Source: Anaerolineales bacterium (GTDB lineage Bacteria > Chloroflexota > Anaerolineae > Anaerolineales > UBA11579). Taken from it: a DNA stretch of 64,000 bases. The position numbers and the translations under genes are program-made. Below the pieces are notes generated by a model, which worked only from the letters and a program-made list of their open reading frames with translations, searched no databases and was not told the DNA's origin. The stretch is from assembly GCA_016932165.1 (NCBI GenBank), contig JAFGDK010000074.1, positions 1 to 64,000 on the forward strand. Reading direction: 5' to 3'. This document shows positions 49,910-64,000 of this stretch, piece after piece; positions within the stretch are counted from its first letter, which is position 1; every line of letters begins with the position of its first letter.

Positions 49910-50608
49910 ATGAAACCACAACCTCTGATACTAAAAATATTAAATTGGGTCTCCGGGATTTTGCTGGTGATTGCCACATATCTGGCCATCATCTGGGCGC
50001 CGACTGAAGCCGTGATGGGCGATGTCCAGCGGGTATTTTACTTCCACGTGGCCACAGGCTGGGTGGGGATGATTGGCTTCTTGCTGGCAGTCTTCTCTGG
50101 GATCATGTACCTGATCAAATCGGATCTGAAATGGGATACCATCGGGTTGGCTGGGATAGAAATAGGCCTAATATTCTCGTTTATCAATATTGTCACCGGT
50201 TCGATCTGGGCGCGCCCGATCTGGAATACTTGGTGGACTTGGGACCCGCGCCTGGTGACAGCCACGATCATGGAATTGGTCTACCTGGCTTATCTCATGC
50301 TGCGGCAGGGGATTGATGACCCAATCCGCCGGGCACGTTTTGGGGCGATCTATGCAATCCTCGGTTTTGTCAGTGTGCCGTTCTCATTCCTCTCCATCCG
50401 TATCTGGCGCACGATCCACCCGGTGGTGGTTGGCAGCGGAGATCCTGGGGCTGAAGGCACCTTTGACATGACCCCGGATATGCAGACAGCCTTCTTTTTC
50501 AGCCTGTTCACTTTCACGGTGTTTGGCATCACCTTGTTGTGGCACCGCATCCGGATTGGGCAGCTGCAAGATAAAGTGGAACAGAAGAAACTGGAATTGA
50601 TGAGCTAA
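49910..50608 (+). CDS. ccmC: Cytochrome c assembly protein CcmC
   Basis: RVFYFHVATGWVGMIGF, GSIWARPIWNTWWTWDPRLVTATIMELVYLAYLMLR. Confidence 0.95.
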   Translation: MKPQPLILKILNWVSGILLVIATYLAIIWAPTEAVMGDVQRVFYFHVATGWVGMIGFLLAVFSGIMYLIKSDLKWDTIGLAGIEIGLIFSFINIVTGSIWARPIWNTWWTWDPRLVTATIMELVYLAYLMLRQGIDDPIRRARFGAIYAILGFVSVPFSFLSIRIWRTIHPVVVGSGDPGAEGTFDMTPDMQTAFFFSLFTFTVFGITLLWHRIRIGQLQDKVEQKKLELMS

Positions 50609-50623
50609 CAGGAGGCCCCTCAA

Positions 50624-50764
50624 ATGGCTGATACTTTAAATTACATGATTTTAGGGTTTGTGGTGATCTTTGTGACCATCGGCCTCCACATTTGGAGTCT
50701 GATCAACCGCAGCAACCGCCTGAAGAAGGACCTGGCGCTGCTGGAGGATATGGCCGAAGAATAG
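50624..50764 (+). CDS. ccmD: CcmD-like small membrane protein (46 aa, not in the ORF track)
   Basis: GGAGG SD; MADTLNYMILGFVVIFVTIGLHIWSLINRSNRLKKDLALLEDMAEE. Confidence 0.8.
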   Translation: MADTLNYMILGFVVIFVTIGLHIWSLINRSNRLKKDLALLEDMAEE

Positions 50765-50785
50765 AGCCTAACAATTGTACTAGCA

Positions 50786-50844
50786 AATCATTAGAAGGGC
50801 GGTTGCTGATTGCAGTGCAGTCAGTAGCTGCCCTTCTAATGATT
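50786..50844. repeat. Long inverted repeat/hairpin between convergent genes
   Basis: AATCATTAGAAGGGC ... GCCCTTCTAATGATT, 15 nt perfect arms, partly self-complementary centre. Confidence 0.8.
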
Positions 50845-50880
50845 GTGAGCGCAGCCAAGCTGTAACAATAGTACCATTGC

Positions 50881-52611
50881 TTATTTCCCGCCCGAGAACA
50901 CGATCCTATCCCGATACTTGTGACTTCTGTTTGTATCCGGGTCGAAGGCTGTCTTGCTCCATGTATCATTGCTTTTCAGATGGAGATCCATCACTTTGAG
51001 CGGTTTGGGATCCAGTCCCTGAGCTTCTCGCTTATCGTTCTCTTTTTTGATCTTTTTGTTTTCTTCGTTGATCTTGTCAATATAATAGCGGGATTTGTAA
51101 TGGTCGAACATGCGCATAAATTCAGTGGCGACGATGGCTGCCAGCCGCTTGTTGCCGCTGATCAAGAGAGCGTTCTCATCATTGTCATCACAGGAAGCTT
51201 GGGAAAAATTGGCAGACCCGATTAATACTTGTGGCTTATCTCCCCACGGGTCGATGACAATGGTTTTGGTGTGGATCTTGTGCTTGCCAAAGGCTTTTGC
51301 ATCCCAGCTTTTGCCCATGTAACTGGTCAGACGGGTGGGTGTAAAGAAGCGGGTGCACCGTTTGCTGAACTGCTCGATCTTCTTCTGGGCAGTGCTGTTG
51401 GTCAGACCGTACTCAACAATATCCCGGGAGTTTCCATGGAGTGCATCGACCATGATCTGATCCACGCCAAAGGGGGCGCTGATCAAGACTGCAGATTCGG
51501 CAGAATTGATTAAATCCGCGGCGGCTTCCAGGATCTCGAACTCCTTGACCGGGGAAAAGAAGATTTTTTCTGCAAACGGGTTGGGGGGTGTGTTTGCCAG
51601 GTCCATGATTGCCCGGTTAGCCTTTTTGCTGTCCGCCTTGGCTGGATTCCCTCTCAAGGCCTGGAAGTAATCTTCATAAAATTGTACTGATTGCGGATCT
51701 CGCACGATCAGGGCGGCATTGGTCTGGAAATAGAAGGCATTTTCAGAGAAATTTGCTGAGCCTGTCCATACCCGCCAGGGAATGCCGCCGACCAGGTGGA
51801 TAACCATCTTGTTGTGGCTGATATTAACCGTTGAGCGTTTTTCGCGGTGGTTTTGCAACTCAAAATGCTGGATGACCTTCTCTGTCTCTTCGGTTGAATT
51901 TTTGCTTGGCCTGGCATCGTGGACAATATGCACATCTACCTGGCGGTCGATGGCATCTTTAAATGCCTGGGCAACTTCATGGTCGTGGAATTCATAGATG
52001 GCCACATGCAGGGCATCTCCAGGCTGCGCCTGGGCAATGAATGCCAGTAGAGACTCTTTCAACCCCCTGGAGAGCCAGTGGTAAGCTTTTTCACCAACTT
52101 CGTGTGGAGGTGTGTTTTGGAAACGGGAGAGGTAGGCCATGGCTGCAGTCACTCCCCGGTTGACGAAGATGCCTAGGTCGCCGGGATCTTCTGGGGAAGG
52201 GGTGACATGGAATTTAAGGGGTTCACCGTCCCTCACCGGGTTTCCCGGCGTGCCGCGGATTGGAAATACTTCATACAGGTATTCTCGGGTAGGTCTCAGG
52301 GTGTAGTCATTCCAGCGGAAGCGCTGAAAAGGCGCTTGCAGCGATCGGACGTCTTCCGCACGCCCATCATCGGTCTCCTTGAAACGTTTATATCCTCCCA
52401 GCCAGTCGAGGCGCATCAATTCCCCTGTCCCGGCATTAAAATCTGACCGGCGGACGGCAAAGCCGAGTAATCCTAAGCGGTCACCGGGGTCGAGAAGATC
52501 CCAGCCGATGATGGTTGAGTGTGTGCCAACCAGGGCTGCGCCTTTTAGTTTGCCACTGGCGGCCCGGATAACCGGTTGATAAGGATTTGCCATTGGGAAC
52601 CTCCTGTTCAT
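50881..52611 (-). CDS. Phospholipase D-like (PLDc) domain protein
   Basis: Two HxK motifs: ISHNKMVIHLVGG...GSANFSENAF and IHTKTIVIDPWGDKPQVLIGSANFSQAS. Confidence 0.88.
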   Translation of the reverse strand: MNRRFPMANPYQPVIRAASGKLKGAALVGTHSTIIGWDLLDPGDRLGLLGFAVRRSDFNAGTGELMRLDWLGGYKRFKETDDGRAEDVRSLQAPFQRFRWNDYTLRPTREYLYEVFPIRGTPGNPVRDGEPLKFHVTPSPEDPGDLGIFVNRGVTAAMAYLSRFQNTPPHEVGEKAYHWLSRGLKESLLAFIAQAQPGDALHVAIYEFHDHEVAQAFKDAIDRQVDVHIVHDARPSKNSTEETEKVIQHFELQNHREKRSTVNISHNKMVIHLVGGIPWRVWTGSANFSENAFYFQTNAALIVRDPQSVQFYEDYFQALRGNPAKADSKKANRAIMDLANTPPNPFAEKIFFSPVKEFEILEAAADLINSAESAVLISAPFGVDQIMVDALHGNSRDIVEYGLTNSTAQKKIEQFSKRCTRFFTPTRLTSYMGKSWDAKAFGKHKIHTKTIVIDPWGDKPQVLIGSANFSQASCDDNDENALLISGNKRLAAIVATEFMRMFDHYKSRYYIDKINEENKKIKKENDKREAQGLDPKPLKVMDLHLKSNDTWSKTAFDPDTNRSHKYRDRIVFSGGK

Positions 52612-52816
52612 CCTGAAGAGTAAAGACTTTTTTCCTGATGGTTTTTATTGGGGGTTGGTTGGCCTCAGGTTGAGTTGCATGGCCGCAAATTGTTTATACA
52701 CTAACCACACCTAAATTGCAACCTGAGCAGCTACATGATGTAGCGGGTATATTGGGGATTGGTTCTACTGATGGCAACCATTTGCGTAATTTTCCCAATC
52801 AGAATAGAATGAAGTC

Positions 52817-54127
52817 ATGCCTGAGAAGAAAGAACAAAATCCGGAAGATCGGCATCTGAGTTACATTGAACGCTCTCCATTTTGGGGCACCAATGTTAAA
52901 TTAATCGTTGGGATTTCACTGGTTGCTGTGGCAGCTGGTCTATTGTTCCAATTCCAGCGGATTCTGACGCCATTGGCTTTTGCGGCGATAATTTCTTACC
53001 TGCTCTATTCCGTGATTGAACTGCTCGTAGAGCGCACCTTCTTTTCTTGGCGTGGGGCAACCAATGTGGTCTTTCTACTGCTGATTGCGCTGCTGCTGAC
53101 TTCGCTTTCGGCCATGGTGGTCGCGCTGGTAAACCAGTTTGAAGAGTTGTTCAAGATTATATCCACTTTCGTGAATGATCTGCCGGCGCTGGTGGAAGAC
53201 TTCCTGAGCAGTGATCCGGTGCTGCTGATCCCATTGATCAATTATGAGTTTGATCTTGGTGAGTACATCCGGACCTTGAATATTGATCTGCTGGCGCTCA
53301 GTGAGCAGCTTCTTTCTACTATTCAGCCGGTGTTGGGGCAGGCAGGAAGTTTGGTTACCAAATTAGCAACCTCTGCTTTTGGCGGCTTGGGTTGGACTGG
53401 CTTTGTTTTGATTGTTTCTTATTTGTTCCTCAGCGAGGCAAAGCAGGGGCGCGAGTTCTTGGTGCGGGAATTGGAAGGCATGTCGTATGACATTGGGCGG
53501 ATGACAAGGGAACTGACCTATGTTTGGGATGCCTTCCTGCGCGGCCAGCTCTTTGTCTTCCTGATCTCATCCAGTACGATGTTTATTCTGATGAACATAC
53601 TCGGCGTGCGCTATGCCCTGGGTCTGGCGATCTTGGCGGGCTTCGCCCGTTTTATCCCTTACCTGGGCCAGTATATCTCTGCGATCGTCAATGCGCTGGT
53701 GGCGTATTTCCTGGCAGAGGGAAACTATCTGGGGATCCAACCAGTTCCTTATATGCTCCTGGTGGTTGGATTGGCTTTTCTCCATGATCAGGTCTACGAT
53801 TCGCTGGTCATCCCGCGTTTTATTGGAAATTTCCTGGGAGTACATCCCGCTCTGGTGCTGATTGCTGCCTTCATTATCACCAGTTGGATCGGCGTGCTGG
53901 GCTTGCTGGTAGCTGCTCCGGTGCTCTCCAGCGCTCAATTGATCTTGCGCTACGTGGTTCGCAAGCTTATGGACCAGGATCCGTGGCCTGATCCTGAGAC
54001 ACCACCACCAACCCTTGGTGAACAATTAAGTAAGGTGTTCCAGTCTGTAAGAAACTGGTTGAAGCTGATCCCTCAACAAGTGAAAGACTTTTTTAGTTCA
54101 TTAAGTAAAAGGATAAAAAGAAAATGA
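52817..54127 (+). CDS. AI-2E family transporter (PerM/UPF0118)
   Basis: Multi-TM; GFARFIPYLGQYISAIVNALVAYF, FLGVHPALVLIAAFI. Confidence 0.9.
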   Translation: MPEKKEQNPEDRHLSYIERSPFWGTNVKLIVGISLVAVAAGLLFQFQRILTPLAFAAIISYLLYSVIELLVERTFFSWRGATNVVFLLLIALLLTSLSAMVVALVNQFEELFKIISTFVNDLPALVEDFLSSDPVLLIPLINYEFDLGEYIRTLNIDLLALSEQLLSTIQPVLGQAGSLVTKLATSAFGGLGWTGFVLIVSYLFLSEAKQGREFLVRELEGMSYDIGRMTRELTYVWDAFLRGQLFVFLISSSTMFILMNILGVRYALGLAILAGFARFIPYLGQYISAIVNALVAYFLAEGNYLGIQPVPYMLLVVGLAFLHDQVYDSLVIPRFIGNFLGVHPALVLIAAFIITSWIGVLGLLVAAPVLSSAQLILRYVVRKLMDQDPWPDPETPPPTLGEQLSKVFQSVRNWLKLIPQQVKDFFSSLSKRIKRK

Positions 54128-54303
54128 CTGAAGGACCTGAAATCAAAACGACAACGATTACCGAAACTGAGAATATGGGTGCCTGGAAGGCGGAGGAACC
54201 TGATGGGGAAGTGGTATACAATCTGCAATTGAACAATGTGACTATTCATTTCTTCCAGGAAGAGTGGGATGAATTCCTTGATTTGGTGAAGGGTTTAAAG
54301 TAA
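54124..54303 (+). CDS. Small hypothetical protein (59 aa), ATGA overlap with AI-2E transporter
   Basis: MTEGPEIKTTTITETENMGAWKAEEPDGEVVYNLQLNNVTIHFFQEEWDEFLDLVKGLK; start overlaps upstream stop. Confidence 0.65.
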   Translation: MTEGPEIKTTTITETENMGAWKAEEPDGEVVYNLQLNNVTIHFFQEEWDEFLDLVKGLK

Positions 54304-54426
54304 AAAACACTCTCCAGGGTCTCGTTTTCCTGCTTTCTGTCTAAGGATTAATCGGTCATGGTATTATCACGGACTTAGCATCTTATCGCGCTTGAATTCA
54401 GTTTTTCAGCATGTTACACTGTATTC

Positions 54427-56049
54427 ATGTCAGTCTCAATTCTCATCTCTACATCAAATGCTGGCTTCGGTGAACTGGTCAGCCAGATCTTACTGGAGAC
54501 CGGAGAGTATGACCTAACCGTCGCCAGGAATAAAACAGCCACGCTGACCGCTCTGGAAGACATAGATTCAGGGCTATTAATTCTGGAAACTGATTTGGAA
54601 GGCGATTCGATCGAGAGTCTCGTTGCTGAAGCCCGGAAATTGGTCCCAGAGCTGCTGCTGATCGTGATTGTTGCCGAAGGTAAGTCTGAAAAGGAACTGG
54701 AAGAGGGTTTATGCCCGGATGCCATCTTATTGAAACCGGTTTACTTGCCAGACCTGGTGAATAGTGTGGAACAAGTGTTGGCGAAAGGAGAATTGAAGAC
54801 CCCTGGTGCAACTGGACCACTCGTAAAGGTAGAAGCACCCGCTGGAGAAAAATCTCCTGCGCCGCAGTGGCTGAGCGACGTTAACCTGGCAGCACAATAT
54901 CTCACCAGCCTGACACTCGAATCTGCTGCGCAGGCTTCCTTGATCACCAATCTAGACCAGATCTGGGCTTATGCCGGGGAATTACCCCAACCCGCGGCTG
55001 AGGAACTTGCACGCACGGTCAGCCAACACTTCCAGAATGGCGGCGGCAGTGATCTGGCCCGCTTTATCCGACTAGAGCAAACCGGCAGTGAGTATATGCT
55101 CTACGCTACCGGGTTGGGCGGACCGTTTGTGCTCTCAACAGTATTTGATACCGAGATGCCTTTCAGTAAGATTCGAGCGCAAGCCAGCAACCTGGCGATG
55201 GCGCTGGCTTCTCCTCCCCCGCCAGAGGAGGTTGAGGACCTTCTGGAGTATGATGATGAAGAAGAATTCTTCAAAGAGGGTGAAGCACTGGAATTGTGGC
55301 CTTTGCTTGACGATGTTCCGCCGCCGATCCCTGATTTGGTGTCTGAGGATTTCGTTGAGCAGAAAGAGATCAGTCTGCTGGAAGAGTTGATGGAAGGTTC
55401 GGTTCCCGATGAATTCTCCTCTGATACGATGGTTATTTCGGGTTTGTACCACTCCGCACGGCCTGATGCCAGTGAACAGCAAGATTTGGGAGAGACAGCG
55501 GTTTCTGCCAGCAAGCAGAGAGCGGAGGAAACCGTAAGAGAATTGGATGTGCAACGGGATGCTGAAGATATGGAAGAAAGTTCCCCTCAGCACGAGGCAA
55601 ATCTGGAGGATCTTCCCACGGCCGAAGAGGAGATTGTGGTAGAGCCTGTTTCTCCCTCGATGTATAATCTCACCTACGCCTGTGTGCTGATTCCGCGCTT
55701 CCTAGATCACCACCTGATTGGTGATGTTGCCCAACGGCTGTCTGATTGGATTACCCATCTGTGTGTTGCATTTGGCTGGCGTTTGGAACAACTAACGATT
55801 AGCCCGAAGTATGTCCAGTGGATGGTAAATGTTCCCCCCAATACCTCTCCGGGATATCTGATGCGTACTATTCGTGAACACACTTCCCGGCGCATGTTTG
55901 TGGAATTTCCCGCCTTGGATCAGGAAAACCTTGTTGGAGATTTTTGGGCTCCCGGGTATCTCGTTCTGGGGACGCCGCAGCCGCCTCCGATCACCTTGAT
56001 TGAGGAATTCATCGAGAATACTCGCAGCCGCCAGGGTTTACAGGAATAA
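54427..56049 (+). CDS. REC-like + Roadblock-like + acidic linker + catalytically degenerate IS200/Y1-transposase-fold protein
   Basis: N-term REC-like (LLILETDLEGDS...AILLKPVYLPDLVNSVEQVL); middle Roadblock-like; C-term LEQLTISPKYVQWMVNVPPNTSPGYLMRTIREHTSRRMFVEFPAL...GDFWAPGYLVLGT...IEEFIENTRS aligns with IS200 TnpA pattern. Confidence 0.82.
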   Translation: MSVSILISTSNAGFGELVSQILLETGEYDLTVARNKTATLTALEDIDSGLLILETDLEGDSIESLVAEARKLVPELLLIVIVAEGKSEKELEEGLCPDAILLKPVYLPDLVNSVEQVLAKGELKTPGATGPLVKVEAPAGEKSPAPQWLSDVNLAAQYLTSLTLESAAQASLITNLDQIWAYAGELPQPAAEELARTVSQHFQNGGGSDLARFIRLEQTGSEYMLYATGLGGPFVLSTVFDTEMPFSKIRAQASNLAMALASPPPPEEVEDLLEYDDEEEFFKEGEALELWPLLDDVPPPIPDLVSEDFVEQKEISLLEELMEGSVPDEFSSDTMVISGLYHSARPDASEQQDLGETAVSASKQRAEETVRELDVQRDAEDMEESSPQHEANLEDLPTAEEEIVVEPVSPSMYNLTYACVLIPRFLDHHLIGDVAQRLSDWITHLCVAFGWRLEQLTISPKYVQWMVNVPPNTSPGYLMRTIREHTSRRMFVEFPALDQENLVGDFWAPGYLVLGTPQPPPITLIEEFIENTRSRQGLQE

Positions 56050-56091
56050 ATCACCACCTGCAAGCACTAATCTTTGCACTATAATAGGAGC

Positions 56092-58884
56092 ATGCCCGAA
56101 ACACTTTATTTGCTCGATGGCTATGCTTTAGCTTACCGTACGTATTTTGCTTTGTCTGGCCCAGGCGCTTCCCGCTGGATGACCAGCAAAGGTGAGCCGA
56201 CCGCTGGTGTCTTTGGTTTTGCCAGCGTATTGCTGCGCATCCTGGAGCAGGAAAAACCGGATTATCTGGCCGTGGCTTTTGATGTTGGAAAGACCTTTCG
56301 TGATGATCTGTTCCCCGACTACAAAGCCACCAGAGAAAAAATGCCCGATGATCTGCGTGTTCAGATCAACCGCATCCGCCAGTTGGTGGATGCGTTCAAC
56401 ATCCCCCGGCTGGAGGTTCAGGGGTATGAGGCCGACGATGTGCTCGGCAGCGCAGCCCGGGCAGCTGTTGATGCGGGCTTGGGCGTCAAGATCATTACTG
56501 GCGACCGGGATTTACTCCAGTTGGTTGATTCAAGAGTGATCGTCAATTTGCCCGGTCGCAGCCTTTCTGAGGCCCAGGACTATACTGCCGATACTGTGAT
56601 GGAATCTCTGGGTGTGCGACCGGACCAGGTGGTGGACTATAAAGCCTTGTGCGGGGACCAATCTGACAATATCCCCGGCGTGCGCGGGGTGGGGAAGAAA
56701 ACCGCAGAAAGCCTGTTGGCAAAATATGGCACCCTGGATGAGATTTATACCCATCTGGAAGAGCTTGCACCCAGCCAGCGAAAAAAGTTGGAAGAAGATA
56801 GAGAAAACGCCTACTTGAGTCAAAAATTGGCCCGGATCGTTACTGACCTTGAGGTCAAGATTGATCTTGAGAAAGCTACCATTACCAACTTCTCTGCGGA
56901 GAATGTGGCTGAACTGTTCAGACAGCTTGAATTCCGATCTTTAATGGGGCGCTTGCAAACGGTGATGGAAAGCCTGGGAATGGTTGAACCTCTTGAGCCA
57001 GCGATCATCTCCGGACAGCAGATGGCGATGTTCCCATCGGTTGTTGCCGGCACTGTAGAAACCGGGTTGGAGACGGTGATTGTGGACAGCGAGGACAAGC
57101 TGGCAGCCCTGGTCGCTGATCTGGATTCGGCGGAAATGATCGCCTTCGATACTGAAACCACTGGCACAGATAAAATGCAGGCCAACCTGGTAGGAATCTC
57201 CTTCGCAACTAGGATCGGAAAGGGCTATTATGTTCCGGTAGGTCATGCCTCTGGCGAGCAGCTTCCTTTGGAACAGGTGATCAATGCCATCCGGCCGGCA
57301 ATGACCAATCCGGGTATCGCTAAAGCTGGGCATAATCTCAAATATGATTATGTGATGCTTTTCCGTCATGGCTTAAAAGTTCACCCGCTGGGGTTTGATA
57401 CCATGCTGGCTGAGTGGCTTCGGGATCCTGCCTCTCGGAACCTTGGGTTAAAGAATCTTTCCTGGGTTCGGCTGGGTTTCCGGATGATTGAAATTGAGGA
57501 ACTGATCGGCAAGGGTAAGAATCAGATTACGATGGCAAAGGTGCCGATTGAACAGGCTGCAGTATACGCCGCCGCTGACGCCGAGACAGTTCTCCGTCTG
57601 GTGCCTGAATTGAAAAAGGACCTGGCAGCAGTAGGCGGGGCAACACTCTTTGAGTCGATGGAAATGCCGCTGGTCGGGCTCCTTTCCGAGATGGAGATGA
57701 ATGGCATTGAGCTGGATGACAACTTTCTGGCGCAGATGTCTGTTGAGTTGGCTTCCCGGATGACAGAACTTGAAGAGGAGATATTTGCCCGGGTAGGCGT
57801 CAACTTTAATCTTAACTCAACCCAGCAGCTTTCTGATGCCTTGTTTAACAAGCTTGGTTTGCAGCCGCCGGAAGGCGCTAGAAAGACCGCCAGTGGGCAC
57901 TATTCCACTGCCGCAGGGGTGCTTGAGCTTCTTCAAACCCAGGATCCAGTGGTGCAGATGGTGCTGGAGCATCGCGAACTGGCCAAATTAAAATCTACTT
58001 ATGTGGATGCCCTTCCCGCCCAGATTAATCCGGTAACCAAACGCGTGCATACCTCTTACCAGCAAACCGGGTCTGTCACCGGACGTTTAGCTTCGTCAGA
58101 TCCTAATTTGCAGAATATCCCCATCCGCTCTGAGATGGGGCGAAAAGTTAGGCAGGCTTTTGTGGCTGCGCCGGGGAATGTGCTTCTGGGAGTGGATTAT
58201 TCACAGGTGGAACTCCGGATCGTGGCACATATGGCGGACGATGATGCGATGATAAAAGCTTTTCTCAAAGATCAAGACATCCATGCCACCACAGCTTCGG
58301 CGGTGTACGGCGTTTCTTTGGATGAGGTAACATCTGATCAGCGAAGGCATGCCAAGGCGATCAACTTCGGTCTGATCTATGGAATGAGCCCGTTTGGTCT
58401 CACCCGCACCACGGATCTGACCCTGGCAGAAGCGGAAGATTTTGTTGCGGCTTATTTTACACAGTTCCCTGGGGTGAAAAAATTCCTTGATGGTCTCCGT
58501 CAACAGGTGCAGGAGAAAGAATATGTTGAAACCTTGCTTGGGCGAAAACGGTATTTTCCTGGTTTAAGTACGCAAAGCAATCAAAACATCCGCAGCCGCC
58601 AGCTTCGTGAAGCGATCAATGCGCCGATTCAAGGTACGGCGGCTGATATTATGAAGGTGGCAATGCTGGATGTATCCAAAGCTTTAAATGAATCCGGACT
58701 GGGTGCAAAATTGTTGCTTCAGGTGCATGACGAAATCGTGCTTGAATGTCCTCAAAGCGAACTAATAGATACCGCTGCTCTGGTTAAGGATCAAATGTCT
58801 CATGCCTATACCTTAAAAGTTCCACTCAAGACGGATGCGCGTGCCGGTGTGAATTGGGGTAAAATGAAACCTGTTGGGATATAA
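56092..58884 (+). CDS. polA: DNA polymerase I (5' nuclease, 3'-5' exonuclease, polymerase)
   Basis: MPETLYLLDGYALAYRTYFAL; IAFDTETTGTDKM, GHNLKYDYV; YSQVELRIVAHMADD, RRHAKAINFGLIYGMSPFGL, LLQVHDEIVLE. Confidence 0.98.
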   Translation: MPETLYLLDGYALAYRTYFALSGPGASRWMTSKGEPTAGVFGFASVLLRILEQEKPDYLAVAFDVGKTFRDDLFPDYKATREKMPDDLRVQINRIRQLVDAFNIPRLEVQGYEADDVLGSAARAAVDAGLGVKIITGDRDLLQLVDSRVIVNLPGRSLSEAQDYTADTVMESLGVRPDQVVDYKALCGDQSDNIPGVRGVGKKTAESLLAKYGTLDEIYTHLEELAPSQRKKLEEDRENAYLSQKLARIVTDLEVKIDLEKATITNFSAENVAELFRQLEFRSLMGRLQTVMESLGMVEPLEPAIISGQQMAMFPSVVAGTVETGLETVIVDSEDKLAALVADLDSAEMIAFDTETTGTDKMQANLVGISFATRIGKGYYVPVGHASGEQLPLEQVINAIRPAMTNPGIAKAGHNLKYDYVMLFRHGLKVHPLGFDTMLAEWLRDPASRNLGLKNLSWVRLGFRMIEIEELIGKGKNQITMAKVPIEQAAVYAAADAETVLRLVPELKKDLAAVGGATLFESMEMPLVGLLSEMEMNGIELDDNFLAQMSVELASRMTELEEEIFARVGVNFNLNSTQQLSDALFNKLGLQPPEGARKTASGHYSTAAGVLELLQTQDPVVQMVLEHRELAKLKSTYVDALPAQINPVTKRVHTSYQQTGSVTGRLASSDPNLQNIPIRSEMGRKVRQAFVAAPGNVLLGVDYSQVELRIVAHMADDDAMIKAFLKDQDIHATTASAVYGVSLDEVTSDQRRHAKAINFGLIYGMSPFGLTRTTDLTLAEAEDFVAAYFTQFPGVKKFLDGLRQQVQEKEYVETLLGRKRYFPGLSTQSNQNIRSRQLREAINAPIQGTAADIMKVAMLDVSKALNESGLGAKLLLQVHDEIVLECPQSELIDTAALVKDQMSHAYTLKVPLKTDARAGVNWGKMKPVGI

Positions 58885-58906
58885 CTGAAGCATATCTGGA
58901 AAAACG

Positions 58907-61216
58907 ATGAACGATCGCGAAAAAACCTATCATGAGGCTATGAATCAGGGCCATTCGGCAGCCTGGGATCAGGATTGGGAATCGGCTGCCAAATACTATA
59001 CTGCGGCTATAGAAACCAAGCCCAACAGTGTGCAGGCAATTAATAACCTCGGATTGGCTTACTTCCAACTTCAACGTTTTAACGATGCTGAAGCCTGTTA
59101 TAAACAGGCTAATAAACTCTCTCCGGATGACCCTCTGGCAATCGAGAGGTTAGCTCAAATCTGTGAGCGGACAGGGAAATTAAAAGAGGCGGCAGAGCAT
59201 TCGATGAATGCTGCAGAACAATATCTGCGATTGAAAGATGTGGATAAGGCGATTGTTAACTGGCAGCGGGTAACCCTGTTGATCCCTGAACACCTCAAAG
59301 CCCATTCCCGGCTTGCGCTGGTTTATGAACGTTTGGGGAAAACTGATCAGGCCGTCGATGAATACCTTGCCGTGGCAGCGCTTTTACAAAATATAGGGCA
59401 GGTCAGCAAGGCTGTTCAGATCGTCGAGAAAGCACTAAAGCTTTCTCCTGAGAATGAAAGTGCTCTTGATGCGCAGGAATTAGTCCGTTCTAATAAGACC
59501 TTGCCAAAACCGCGGCGCCAACACGGCGCCACTGGTCCATTGCGGATGGCTGCGCTGCGCGAGATGGAGAAAGAATCCAAACCTGAGAGGACAAATGTTT
59601 CAAAAAGAGGGCCAGATCCGATCGCAGAAGCCAGACAGCTGGCGCTTACAGATTTGGCTGGTTTGCTTTTCGAGGTTTCATTGGATGACCTGGATCCAGA
59701 GAGTACACAATCAGGTCTGCGGAGTATGTTCGGCCGGTCGAAGAACGGGGAGTTGCAAGATATTTCCCGCCATTTGGGAAATGCCATAGACCTCCAAACG
59801 CGGGCAGAGAACGCCGAAGCAGTGAAGCAGTTGAAGGGTGCCATTGAACTGGGACTTGATATCGCAGCTTCAAATTTTAATATAGGATTGCTGTACCATT
59901 CACTGGGACAGAAGGAGCGATCCAATCGCCATTTGCTCAAGGCGATCCGCGATGAAAAATTTGCACTGGCATCGCACCTGTTGATTGCTCAACAACACCG
60001 CAGCAATAATAATTTGCAGAAAGCTGCCATTTCTTATCTCGAAGCTTTGCGAGAAGCAGATATCCAGATCATCGAGCTTGAACATAAAGCCAGCTTGCGA
60101 AGCCAGTATGAACCGCTGATTGAGGGGTTTTCGCAGCAGCGTGATACGAGCATATTGGAGCAAATCTGCGACAATGTCACCGAGATGTTGGTGCGTCAGA
60201 ACTGGCGCGACCATATTGCAAAAACCCGCAAACAAATGCCAGGCAGCGGCGGCAGCGCCCCGATCCCATTGGCTGAAATCCTGACAGAGGCCAAAGATTC
60301 CCGGATTGTTGAAGGACTGGCCCGGATCAATGAGATAGCCTCAAAGGGATATCTCCGTTCTGCGATGGAGGAGGCTTATATGCTTCTCTCGATTGCGCCC
60401 ACATATCTGCCGCTGCACATTCAGATGGCGGAATTCATGCTCAAAATGGGGAACCAGGATGCTGCCATGCAGAAATTTATTGTGGTTTCCGAGGCATATG
60501 GCACCCGCGGCGAGCATAAACGCGCTACAAATCTGCTCAGCAGGGTGGTGGAATTATCTCCAATGGATTATAAAGCCCGTCATTATCTCATCCAGCGGCT
60601 TGTAGAAACTGGCGACACCGAAGAGGCAGTACACGAGAATATCAAGCTCGCAGATGTGCAATACCGCCTTGCACAGCTTGATCTGGCCCGTAAAACATAC
60701 GAAAGTGCCCTGCGGTTGGCACAAAAGTACAATGCCGGTGAGTCTTGGGTAATCCGAATTTTAAAGCAGATGGCAGACATTGACTTGCAGCGGCTTGATT
60801 GGCGTCAGGCTTTGCGAGTGTTTGAGCAATTGCGAAAGCTTGATCCTGAGGAACAATCTCATCGCCGCCAATTGGTAGAACTGAATGTCCGGCTGGGTCA
60901 GAATAAGCAGGCAGAAGCAGAGCTGGAAAATTTCATCAGTTATCTCTCCAATAAGTCCCAATTGGATACAGCCACGGTTTTCTTGGAGAAATTTATTGAG
61001 GATAATGATTCAATGGCTTTTGCCCGCGATAAGCTGGCTGAGTGCTACCACCAGGCTGGCCGGCCAGAAGAAGCGATTGAACAGTGGGATAGAGTGGCTG
61101 AAATGATGGTCGTCCAGGGGAACCTGGAACGCGCGAAGGAAGTAATCCGGGCTATATTGCTGCTTGATCCTCCCAATGCGGACCAATATCGGGTGGCCTT
61201 ACAGCAATTGGGGTGA
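58907..61216 (+). CDS. Large TPR-repeat protein
   Basis: Serial TPR motifs across 769 aa (AINNLGLAYFQLQRFNDAEACYKQANKLSPDD etc.). Confidence 0.9.
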   Translation: MNDREKTYHEAMNQGHSAAWDQDWESAAKYYTAAIETKPNSVQAINNLGLAYFQLQRFNDAEACYKQANKLSPDDPLAIERLAQICERTGKLKEAAEHSMNAAEQYLRLKDVDKAIVNWQRVTLLIPEHLKAHSRLALVYERLGKTDQAVDEYLAVAALLQNIGQVSKAVQIVEKALKLSPENESALDAQELVRSNKTLPKPRRQHGATGPLRMAALREMEKESKPERTNVSKRGPDPIAEARQLALTDLAGLLFEVSLDDLDPESTQSGLRSMFGRSKNGELQDISRHLGNAIDLQTRAENAEAVKQLKGAIELGLDIAASNFNIGLLYHSLGQKERSNRHLLKAIRDEKFALASHLLIAQQHRSNNNLQKAAISYLEALREADIQIIELEHKASLRSQYEPLIEGFSQQRDTSILEQICDNVTEMLVRQNWRDHIAKTRKQMPGSGGSAPIPLAEILTEAKDSRIVEGLARINEIASKGYLRSAMEEAYMLLSIAPTYLPLHIQMAEFMLKMGNQDAAMQKFIVVSEAYGTRGEHKRATNLLSRVVELSPMDYKARHYLIQRLVETGDTEEAVHENIKLADVQYRLAQLDLARKTYESALRLAQKYNAGESWVIRILKQMADIDLQRLDWRQALRVFEQLRKLDPEEQSHRRQLVELNVRLGQNKQAEAELENFISYLSNKSQLDTATVFLEKFIEDNDSMAFARDKLAECYHQAGRPEEAIEQWDRVAEMMVVQGNLERAKEVIRAILLLDPPNADQYRVALQQLG

Positions 61217-61220
61217 ACTG

Positions 61221-61245
61221 ATCGGGTGAAATACCCCGATTTTTT
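61221..61245 (+). terminator. Intrinsic terminator after TPR gene
   Basis: ATCGGG...CCCGAT followed by T6. Confidence 0.6.
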
Positions 61246-61303
61246 CATCTTTGATTATTCCGGCGATAAAAGTCGCCCTCACAGCAAAAAACTGCCTGCA
61301 ACG

Positions 61304-61342
61304 AAAAAGCTCATCGAATATCTCTGTTCGATGAGCTTTTTT
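61304..61342. terminator. Intrinsic bidirectional terminator
   Basis: AAAAAGCTCATCGAA-TATCTCTG-TTCGATGAGCTTTTTT. Confidence 0.85.
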
Positions 61343-61412
61343 GTTCCACAATGATGGATTTGTGTAATTTGTAGAGAATCTCTCAAACACACCAGTCGGC
61401 AAGGCTCATGTG

Positions 61413-62372
61413 TTAGTACCAAAGACGGAAAGAGGTAACCGTCATATCTTCCAGGGAGGTTATATATGTCATCCGGACAATAACTTCAACAAGGCCAAAT
61501 TCCTCTGAACTGGCGGTGAAAGCCACCTGTGCCAATCCATGTGAATCGGTGGTGATGTTGTTGAGCTGTGTCACCCGTCCGTCTGGAAATTTGATCGTGA
61601 TGAATAGAGATGCCTTTGACAAAGGGGAGCCGTTATTGTCTTTGGCAATCATATTCAACAGTTGAGTTTCATCCTTGGAGAGAACAGCATATTCTGGAAA
61701 AGCGGTCACATCAATCTTTTCAATCTTTTCCCGGTAGATAATGTTGTCGTTATCCTCCGGTTCAAGCAGACGATAATTAGTCTCGTAGGCATAAAAGAAT
61801 TTATAACCCAACGGTGCCAGGATAACCTCAGATTCAAGGGGGTTCTCTGGATACCAGACCAGTTGGCCGAACTCGAAGAATTGCACCAACCGCCCGCGGA
61901 GATATTCCAGCCCTGAAACCGGCTGACCAAGCTGTTCTTCACCACCAAGATGCAAGTAGAAGAGATAGAAGGAATGACAAACCGGGTAGTCCCAGTGGTC
62001 TTGCTGGTAACAATTAGGGGTATCTTTGGTCAGACCGGGAATATAAGTGCCATGTTCGTAGAGTTTTTGGCCTACCGGGGTCAGTTTTACCCTGCTGCCG
62101 GGGGGGTTCTCTGGGTAATATTCAAATCTGACATATTCGAAATACTGCACCGTGCGCCCGGTGTTGGCGTCGATAATCGCTTCTGTGATTGGATTGCCAT
62201 ACACCGTTTTGTAAAAGGGGTTTGCATAGTAATAGGTAAAAAACTCGCCACCCAGATTGTGACCGGTTTCCCCAATATAGTTTGGATATAACTCCTGTGC
62301 AACAGCGCTTTGCACGGTGAGGGTTAATATTAAGATCACGAATAAAACCGCAGTATGCACTTTCCCACTCAT
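61413..62372 (-). CDS. Secreted hypothetical protein with repeated aromatic-rich segments and Ig-like C terminus
   Basis: Signal peptide; repeated TGHNLGGEFFTYY.../LVQFFEFGQLVWYPENPLESEVILAPLG segments; C-terminal PDGRVTQLNNITTDSHGLAQVAFTAS Big-like. Confidence 0.65.
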   Translation of the reverse strand: MSGKVHTAVLFVILILTLTVQSAVAQELYPNYIGETGHNLGGEFFTYYYANPFYKTVYGNPITEAIIDANTGRTVQYFEYVRFEYYPENPPGSRVKLTPVGQKLYEHGTYIPGLTKDTPNCYQQDHWDYPVCHSFYLFYLHLGGEEQLGQPVSGLEYLRGRLVQFFEFGQLVWYPENPLESEVILAPLGYKFFYAYETNYRLLEPEDNDNIIYREKIEKIDVTAFPEYAVLSKDETQLLNMIAKDNNGSPLSKASLFITIKFPDGRVTQLNNITTDSHGLAQVAFTASSEEFGLVEVIVRMTYITSLEDMTVTSFRLWY

Positions 62373-62433
62373 AGTGACATTATTATAGGGAAATTCAGAT
62401 TTCAGACAACCAAAATTGGCAACGAATTTGCAC

Positions 62434-63117
62434 TCAGCCGTTGAGGATGATTTGGGTCAGGGTGGCTACATCCTCCACAACCAGGTCTGCGCCGGCCCTG
62501 AGCAGTTCTTTCTGGTCTCCAAAACCTGACAGCACGCCCACTGTCTGCGCTCCGGCAGCTTTCCCAGAACGGATATCCACGGTGGTATCCCCGATCATCA
62601 GACAGTTTTCCGGGGCGACTTTCATCTCGCCAGCAGCCCAGAGCACTGGATCAGGCCAGGGTTTGGTATGGGCGGTAGTCTGGCCAGATGCAATGCAGAT
62701 GAAGTGCCTGTTCAACCGCTGATGGGTAATAAATTCTTCGGTTCCTGCTTTTCCCCGGGCGCTGACCACAGCCATTGGGTATCTGGCAGCCAGCAGGTCC
62801 AAACTCTCTTTTGTGCCGGGTATCAGAGGCAAATCTTCCCTGGAGGGCCGTAATTTTAGGTCGTTAAGTTTCTCCAGAAGGCTGATTACCGAGGCATCCA
62901 GATGTAGCCGGTCAAGAAGTGTGTAAACCGCGTTTATCGGCGTATCGAGGAACATCACAACCCGGCGTGCCGCCTTATGTACATCCTGGTTAGGAGCCAG
63001 CCGGAAAGCGGGTGTAAACAACCGGACCAACTTGTCTTGATACTGGTCATCGGTATCCCTCAAAGTGCCGTCTACATCAAAACAAAGGGCTTTAATCCTG
63101 TCAAGTTCCAGCGGCAT
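62434..63117 (-). CDS. HAD family hydrolase (phosphoglycolate phosphatase-like)
   Basis: ALCFDVDGTLRDTDDQ; PMAVVSARGKAG; CLMIGDTTVDIRSGKAAGAQTVGVLSGFG. Confidence 0.92.
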   Translation of the reverse strand: MPLELDRIKALCFDVDGTLRDTDDQYQDKLVRLFTPAFRLAPNQDVHKAARRVVMFLDTPINAVYTLLDRLHLDASVISLLEKLNDLKLRPSREDLPLIPGTKESLDLLAARYPMAVVSARGKAGTEEFITHQRLNRHFICIASGQTTAHTKPWPDPVLWAAGEMKVAPENCLMIGDTTVDIRSGKAAGAQTVGVLSGFGDQKELLRAGADLVVEDVATLTQIILNG

Positions 63118-63260
63118 AAGTTCACCTCAGAATAGATTGCGGTATTGTACCAGACCAGTTTCAAGATAAAAACTAGTTGCTATCTCCGTTGAATGCCGTC
63201 CTTCGATGATTTGTGGTATATATTACCTGGCGATATTAATCGTTACAAGAGGACTTTGAT

Positions 63261-63893
63261 ATGGAACGTGGTGAATCTCAACTCGATGAGGCTAAGATGG
63301 TAACTTATGCCCTTGAAGGTGACCTGGATGCTTTCAACCGGCTGGTACTTGCCTATCAGGATATAGCCTATAACGTGGCTTATCGTGTGACGGGGGAACG
63401 GGCTTCAGCTGAGGATGCTGTTCAGGATGCTTTTATTTCTGCATACCGGAAGTTAAAAACATTCAAGGGCGGGTCTTTCAAAGCCTGGCTGTTACGGATT
63501 GTGACCAATGCCTGTCTGGATGAGCTTCGCAGGCTGAAGCGGAGACCGACAATCCCGCTGCAGCCTGTTGGCAATGATGATGAGGAGATTGAATCCCCCG
63601 ACTGGTTGGAGGACCCAGGGGAGTCTCCGGAGGAATCGATCCTCCGTTCGGAGTTAAGCACAGCTATCCAGAATTGCCTGAACGGGCTGGAAGATGATTT
63701 CCGGGTGGTTGTGATCCTGGTAGATATCCAAGGGATGGATTATGCAGAGGCTGCGGAAGCAGTCAATTCCCCCCTGGGAACGATCAAAAGTCGTCTGGCC
63801 AGGGCCAGGGCAAAGATGCAAGATTGTCTGAGGGCAATTGGGGAACTTTTGCCAGGGAATTTCCGTTTAGAAGGTGAGAGGATTTCATCATGA
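63261..63893 (+). CDS. ECF RNA polymerase sigma factor
   Basis: DLDAFNRLVLAYQDIAYNVAYRVTGERASAEDAVQDAFISAYRKLKTFKGGSFKAWLLRIVTNACLDELRR; LGTIKSRLARARAKMQDCL. Confidence 0.96.
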   Translation: MERGESQLDEAKMVTYALEGDLDAFNRLVLAYQDIAYNVAYRVTGERASAEDAVQDAFISAYRKLKTFKGGSFKAWLLRIVTNACLDELRRLKRRPTIPLQPVGNDDEEIESPDWLEDPGESPEESILRSELSTAIQNCLNGLEDDFRVVVILVDIQGMDYAEAAEAVNSPLGTIKSRLARARAKMQDCLRAIGELLPGNFRLEGERISS

Positions 63894-64000
63894 AGATCAA
63901 TAAATCCGGCAACACCATAATTGAAACCCTTTCTGCTTACCTGGATGGACAACTCCCTGAAGAGGAACTTCGTTTGGTACGCGAGAGGTTGGCGCATGAT
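63890..64000 (+). CDS. Probable anti-sigma factor, truncated by window end
   Basis: ATGA overlap with ECF sigma; MKINKSGNTIIETLSAYLDGQLPEEELRLVRERLAHD resembles zf-HC2-type N terminus. Confidence 0.7.
   Translation, partial: MKINKSGNTIIETLSAYLDGQLPEEELRLVRERLAHD

Follow-up and report, generated by a model that had tools for sequence, protein, structure and literature searches.

A REC-Roadblock protein of Anaerolineales with a catalytically dead IS200-type Y1 domain, encoded beside polA

Introduction

Y1 domains of the TnpA type recognise hairpins (PMC8266576), and for TnpA of IS608 an affinity for fork-like DNA has been described, together with a presumed binding to DnaN (PMC6006769). In a genome-wide survey of Y1 proteins, an intact HuH/Y core was described for all members (PMC6006769). 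The known bacterial domestications of IS200-type enzymes, the TnpA-REP proteins or RAYTs, retain the HUH motif and the catalytic Tyr and process REP hairpins (PMC6006769, PMC8266576), and so keep the cutting chemistry. A word search of the survey (PMC6006769) found no mention of response regulators, receivers, polA or inactive members. We also searched the open-access literature for Y1 domains with response regulators and for domesticated IS200 fusions, and did not find the family reported here, although such an absence proves nothing.

The gene studied here, in which this chemistry is lost, lies on a 64,000-nucleotide stretch of an Anaerolineales genome (contig JAFGDK010000074.1), which is called the window below. 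Its Y1 domain shares the fold of the IS200/IS605 TnpA proteins (ISDra2, IS608) over the whole domain, at approximately 17–26% identity in structure alignments, and in sequence is nearest to ISDra2/IS200-type TnpA. It differs in that the family lacks the HUH and Gln ligands, is fused to REC and Roadblock domains, has no TnpB or IS neighbours and is vertically descended. In being a chromosomal, housekeeping-like, domesticated Y1 domain it resembles the RAYTs, but it is dead, has other partner domains, and does not have the intact HUH/Y core by which TnpA-REP proteins are defined (PMC6006769). The middle domain is like MglB by both profile and fold, except that it sits between REC and Y1 and has no linked MglA gene. 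The N-terminal domain is comparable to the atypical (pseudo-) receivers, having the REC fold and the Lys-Pro pair but not the metal-binding acidic residues; however, most relatives in the family still have the acceptor Asp, with Glu found mainly near the window protein.

Domain structure

The open reading frame is complete, with an ATG at 54427, 540 codons and a stop at 56047–56049, and its frame and coordinates are exact. The features of the protein are listed here by window coordinates, with the evidence in brackets.

54427..56049, + strand: whole gene, a REC-Roadblock-linker-dead Y1 protein of 540 aa (ORF, Pfam, AlphaFold)
54433..54786, + strand: REC-like (pseudo-receiver) domain, aa 3–120 (AlphaFold, Foldseek, residue counts over 121 relatives)
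54865..55212, + strand: Roadblock/LC7 (MglB-type) domain, aa 147–262 (AlphaFold, profile, Foldseek)
55213..55659, + strand: acidic, Pro-rich disordered linker, aa 263–411 (pLDDT <50 over most of it)
55303..55335, + strand: short linear motif of the linker, LLDDVPPPIPD, common to related families (alignment)
55660..56019, + strand: Y1 / IS200 TnpA-like domain, aa 412–531, catalytically dead (Pfam, NCBIfam, phmmer, AlphaFold, Foldseek)
55810..55818, + strand: Y462-V463-Q464, in the place of the HUH motif (alignment, family counts)
56008..56010, + strand: F528, in the place of the catalytic Tyr (alignment, family counts)
56020..56037, + strand: T532-R-S-R-Q-G537, family-specific C-terminal motif (conservation)

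An AlphaFold model of the whole protein was built with 34 aligned family sequences. It contains three confident domains, REC-like (3–120), Roadblock (147–262) and Y1 (412–535), with pLDDT >90 nearly throughout each. The initial annotation, made from sequence alone, had proposed a Y1 TnpA-like, a REC-like and a Roadblock/LC7-like domain with a long acidic linker in between. All three domain calls are upheld by the profiles and the structure models, and so is the linker, which is predicted to be disordered and is by dN/dS comparison the fastest-evolving part of the protein. A looser version of its LLDDVPPPIPD motif is present in 38 of 126 members. FHA-type [DE]TxPS motifs appeared by eye to be repeated in the linker; the loose pattern occurs in 68/126 members, mostly singly and in a linker rich in Thr, Ser and Pro, and no claim is made for it. 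In the C-terminal motif, T532 of the window protein occupies the place of the metal-binding Gln of TnpA, and R533, Q536 and G537 are conserved across the family at 98%, 96% and 94%, respectively.

The Y1 domain has lost its metal site

The only Pfam match above threshold in the whole protein is PF01797 (Y1_Tnp), which covers residues 412–531 with an E-value of 6.7e-15, above the cut-off. The NCBIfam IS200 model (NF033573) also matches above its cut-off (E 3.5e-17), and phmmer against the PDB matched DR_0177 and ISDra2 TnpA, with an E-value of 1.6e-11 to 2fyx. When the AlphaFold model was searched with Foldseek, the top-ranked structures were the TnpA proteins of ISDra2, Sulfolobus and ISHp608 (2fyx, TM 0.83 by target length, rmsd 3.0). 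A C-terminal structure that did not match the HUH/Y1 fold would have refuted the assignment; the fold was matched.

The active site is a different matter. In the window protein the HUH motif is replaced by Y462-V-Q464 and the catalytic Tyr by F528, as had been read in the initial annotation (HxH to YVQ, and Phe for Tyr in EFI). Active-site residues were then counted in 126 family members and in 26 active TnpAs of the same class. The bona fide active enzymes keep the two His (25/26 and 26/26), the Tyr (24/24) and the Gln (23/24), whereas in the family the HUH histidine is kept in 7/126 members at the first position and 7/126 at the second, both together in just a single genome. Gln, the third metal ligand, is kept in 8/126. 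The position of the catalytic Tyr is Tyr in 64 members and Phe in 61. The suggestion that loss of both His and the Tyr would be conserved is thus only partly borne out: loss of HUH and Gln is a family trait, but loss of Tyr is not. The metal site (HUH and Gln) was lost before the family diversified, and the drift between Tyr and Phe is as expected of a structural position. In a tree, a branch supported at 100/100 sets all Y1 domains of the family apart from the active TnpAs of the class. Membership of the IS200/IS605 Y1 transposases is therefore met in fold and PF01797 homology, but not in the HUH, Tyr and Gln of an active enzyme. One member, L069 (identical in record to L107), reads HLH where the HUH motif would be and was considered as an ancestral active form; this was ruled out, as it is nested in the dead clade and has Phe at the Tyr position.

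The net charge of the Y1 domain has fallen, to a family mean of +1.0 (and −3 in the window protein) against +3.6 in active TnpAs. The domain has eight well-conserved arginines against three conserved acidic positions, and three family-specific conserved tryptophans, W441, W451 and W465, which are absent from TnpA. Residues that are invariant in TnpA, such as the His of the first strand, have been lost.

Distribution and descent

Of 61 genomes of the order, namely the one that carries the gene and 60 relatives, 48 gave a match. The full-length fusion is present in most families of the order, in family f48, and in more diverged form in f34, f60 and f62 of the class. In a survey of 301 genomes across the phylum, strong matches (E up to 1e-25) were confined to the gene's own order, in 21 genomes, and the named records that carry the family are Chloroflexota, mostly labelled Anaerolineales or Anaerolineae. 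A single-sequence scan of the contig collection gave no match; the family there was found by a profile scan. The architectures recovered were REC-Roadblock-Y1 (115), Roadblock-Y1 (8), REC-Roadblock (5) and Y1 alone (3). These are counts of records rather than species, and include fragments at contig edges and some contigs duplicated across two collections.

Pairwise dN/dS of the Y1 domain is 0.02–0.10 in eight of nine pairs and 0.25 in the other, about the level seen in the Roadblock domain and far lower than in the linker. Averaged across 56 loci, the p-distance of Y1 is 0.27, compared with 0.31 for PolA, and distances for the whole protein correlate with those of PolA (r = 0.92). The gene is vertically inherited, strongly conserved and not mobile. 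The chemistry has been lost, and since then the fold has been maintained as strictly as DNA polymerase I; this implies a use for the binding or scaffolding function by itself. Homologues with intact HUH and Tyr beside IS200 ends would have pointed to a transposon; the homologues are instead dead and vertically inherited, and purifying selection acts on them.

The REC and Roadblock domains

The REC fold is confirmed by a Foldseek match to 3crn (TM 0.87), and REC is detected by Pfam in relatives. The window protein retains the Lys-Pro pair (K103-P104) and has Glu54 at the position where 114 of 121 relatives carry Asp, both as initially annotated. The Glu, however, is limited to close relatives of the window protein and a few others, and the general defect is a different one, namely loss of the receiver acidic pair at positions 9/10 (T9-S10 in the window protein). 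Only 10/121 relatives, mostly deep-branching, combine D54 and K103 with an acidic residue at 9/10. The domain thus meets the definition of a receiver by fold, but not by its set of acidic pair, acceptor Asp and Lys. We conclude that it is a pseudo-receiver through loss of the metal-binding pair, and that relatives of the window protein later altered the acceptor as well. In some members, including L151, L158, L165, L170 and L172, REC is seemingly absent.

In the PDB, the profile of the Roadblock domain finds MglB chains and nothing else (best E 2.8e-5). When the middle domain was modelled on its own (pLDDT 95.5), MglB was the best Foldseek match. With the whole-protein model, Foldseek also matches receivers and Roadblock proteins of the Rag/EGO kind. 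Pfam Robl_LC7 itself recognises just 1/29 members, and the window Roadblock is below Pfam detection; membership of the MglB-type Roadblock/LC7 proteins is met by fold and profile similarity. No MglA gene is linked to the REC-Roadblock-Y1 gene. The genome does encode an MglA-type GTPase, beside an apparent PATAN-type protein (PATAN by sequence, with no profile test), which is a known setting for MglA genes (PMC4316618).

The gene is linked to polA

Downstream of the gene are two further genes of a conserved run:

56092..58884, + strand: polA (DNA polymerase I), 42 nt downstream of the gene (ORF list, neighbour scan)
58907..61216, + strand: TPR protein, third gene of the run (neighbour scan)

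The start of polA is placed at the ATG at 56092, which is preceded by AGGAG; the listed TTG at 56074 is probably wrong. A TATAAT just ahead of this ATG may be there by chance.

Neighbourhoods were compared in 80 named loci, picked by the Y1 motif alone. In 72 of them polA lies downstream on the same strand (70 within 600 nt by script, plus L113 and L139). One further contig ends too early, and seven loci have no polA in the 1.5–5 kb examined downstream. The TPR gene follows polA in 52/80, while the upstream AI-2E transporter gene is common to only 4/80. The initial annotation had mentioned only in passing that the gene is just upstream of polA; this held, and is the strongest functional clue. 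The linkage offers a direct route to testing what the Y1 domain is used for. The gap to polA is 3–14 nt in some relatives, which rules out a cis hairpin in this gap as a general element. In three genomes, ORFs of 759–1023 aa lie between the gene and polA; by eye, with no profile search, they look mutually unrelated and include a MetE-like enzyme and a restriction-modification methylase.

Deep relatives with Y1 are found upstream of polA in f34 and f62, and relatives without Y1 in f24, f23 and f42, with Roadblock forms in f49 and f19. The gene can be lost, as several genomes of the order lack it and have a polA with unrelated neighbours. REC-Roadblock or Roadblock-only genes without Y1 also immediately precede polA in further families of the class (L073:5181-5948, L233, L234, L237). 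The occurrence of the linkage with and without Y1 suggests that the association of a Roadblock protein with polA predates the Y1 fusion or arose separately from it.

No TnpB or IS genes were found among the neighbours scanned, in agreement with the initial annotation. There is no mobile context in the form of TnpB, IS genes or room for IS ends, given the 42 nt to polA and the vertical inheritance, a judgement made without a separate scan for hairpin ends. Rfam elements gave no match in 50000–64000, and PADLOC gave no defence model for the gene's protein or its TPR neighbour. A PLD-like protein, with a PLDc_2 match and weak similarity to NgoFVII, is encoded on the other strand of the window at 50881–52611; its gene is flanked by those for a cytochrome-assembly protein and the AI-2E transporter.

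Possible function

It is shown that the Y1 domain is dead and conserved, and that gene order connects it with polA and the TPR gene. The reading we prefer, with a probability of only roughly 0.45, is that the protein is a host-domesticated signalling adaptor that is linked to Pol I and whose non-cutting Y1 module would bind nucleic acid. Its inferred role would be in DNA repair or replication and not in DNA movement. Roadblock and TnpA domains both normally form dimers, from which we infer a dimeric scaffold. Its pseudo-receiver and MglB-type Roadblock would receive their input from another protein, perhaps the MglA-type GTPase of the same genome (GTPase binding is inferred), and the long flexible linker would carry partner motifs. 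The dead TnpA domain would recognise but not cut structured single-stranded DNA (hairpins, lagging-strand or gap structures), and may thereby place the regulator or its partner at substrates of DNA polymerase I. If this is true, small-GTPase signalling of the MglA/MglB kind is joined to DNA repair or replication in a large and little-studied class.

The earlier idea of an exapted module in a regulator is thus supported, but binding to ssDNA or hairpins remains an inference. In its favour are the eight conserved arginines and the affinity of TnpA for forks and DnaN (PMC6006769), in the absence of any binding data. Against it are the fallen net charge and the lost TnpA-invariant residues, and there is no direct evidence of binding. 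Neither is the gene neighbourhood proof of an interaction with Pol I, given the seven loci without polA nearby and the polA genes elsewhere that lack the gene. That REC can be lost and that no MglA gene is linked also count against the preferred reading.

The most serious alternative, to which we give rather less than an equal chance, is that the dead Y1 domain has lost nucleic-acid binding as well and is a dimerisation and protein-docking module in a GTPase or kinase signalling scaffold, the polA operon being incidental. This would suit the net charge, which in many members is negative or close to zero, the three tryptophans not found in TnpA, the MglB-type Roadblock, and linker motifs conserved in part of the family. 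However, the conserved charged positions are mostly arginine, the long-lived linkage is to polA and not to signalling genes, and standalone dead-Y1 paralogues without REC or Roadblock accompany a DNA endonuclease gene (see below). It is also conceivable, but unlikely, that Y1 binds an mRNA or DNA hairpin at its own locus, making the protein an autoregulator of the polA operon. The gene is adjacent to and co-directional with polA, 42 nt away in the window, and TnpA domains recognise hairpins (PMC8266576); but the gaps of 3–14 nt in some relatives leave no space there for a cis hairpin (this concerns the gap only, not the 5′ leader), no Rfam element was found in 50000–64000, and the paralogues are not near polA.

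Two further explanations have little to support them. Retention or recovery of some other nuclease or ligase chemistry, through the Tyr kept in half of the family, could appeal to the 64/126 members with Tyr and to the one genome (L069) with His at both HUH positions. We consider it very improbable, because Tyr and Phe interchange freely, the window protein has Phe, the metal Gln is missing in nearly all members, and L069 itself carries Phe in the Tyr position and falls inside the dead clade. A decaying or mobile IS200 element, or two genes accidentally read as one, would explain the strong match to IS200 TnpA profiles, but can be practically dismissed: the same fusion occurs in most families of the order, as one clade, with dN/dS mostly 0.02–0.10 and vertical descent, the scanned neighbours include neither TnpB nor an IS gene, and polA begins a mere 42 nt further on.

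Standalone dead-Y1 paralogues and other Y1 proteins

Three genomes contain standalone dead-Y1 paralogues of 171–194 aa, without REC or Roadblock, together with Mrr-type endonuclease and TPR genes:

L258:2517-5347, L259:3372-6095 and L071:1923-6199: standalone dead-Y1 gene, with the Mrr endonuclease and TPR genes following it

The paralogues are not near polA. The Mrr endonuclease gene is PDC-S02-like by PADLOC. The L071 locus has an intervening gene of 448 aa, whose family is unknown. These loci may represent a defence-like or repair operon. They repeat the arrangement of reader, enzyme and TPR protein with another DNA enzyme, the role of Y1 as reader being inferred. A bolder version of the adaptor reading, which is no more than a possibility, is that the Anaerolineae have an undescribed Pol I accessory system, in which a small-GTPase-responsive adaptor, with a dead IS200 transposase that reads structured ssDNA, would place or control Pol I, and a parallel version of the reader would serve the Mrr nuclease.

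Y1 domains with an intact HxH were also observed inside large proteins in three other families of the class (L255:2388-6332, L256:2362-6165, L257:1742-5359), which carry DNA-methyltransferase or DUF1156 domains (Eco57I, N6_N4_Mtase). These Y1 domains resemble the RAYT type, and could be insertions or fusions.
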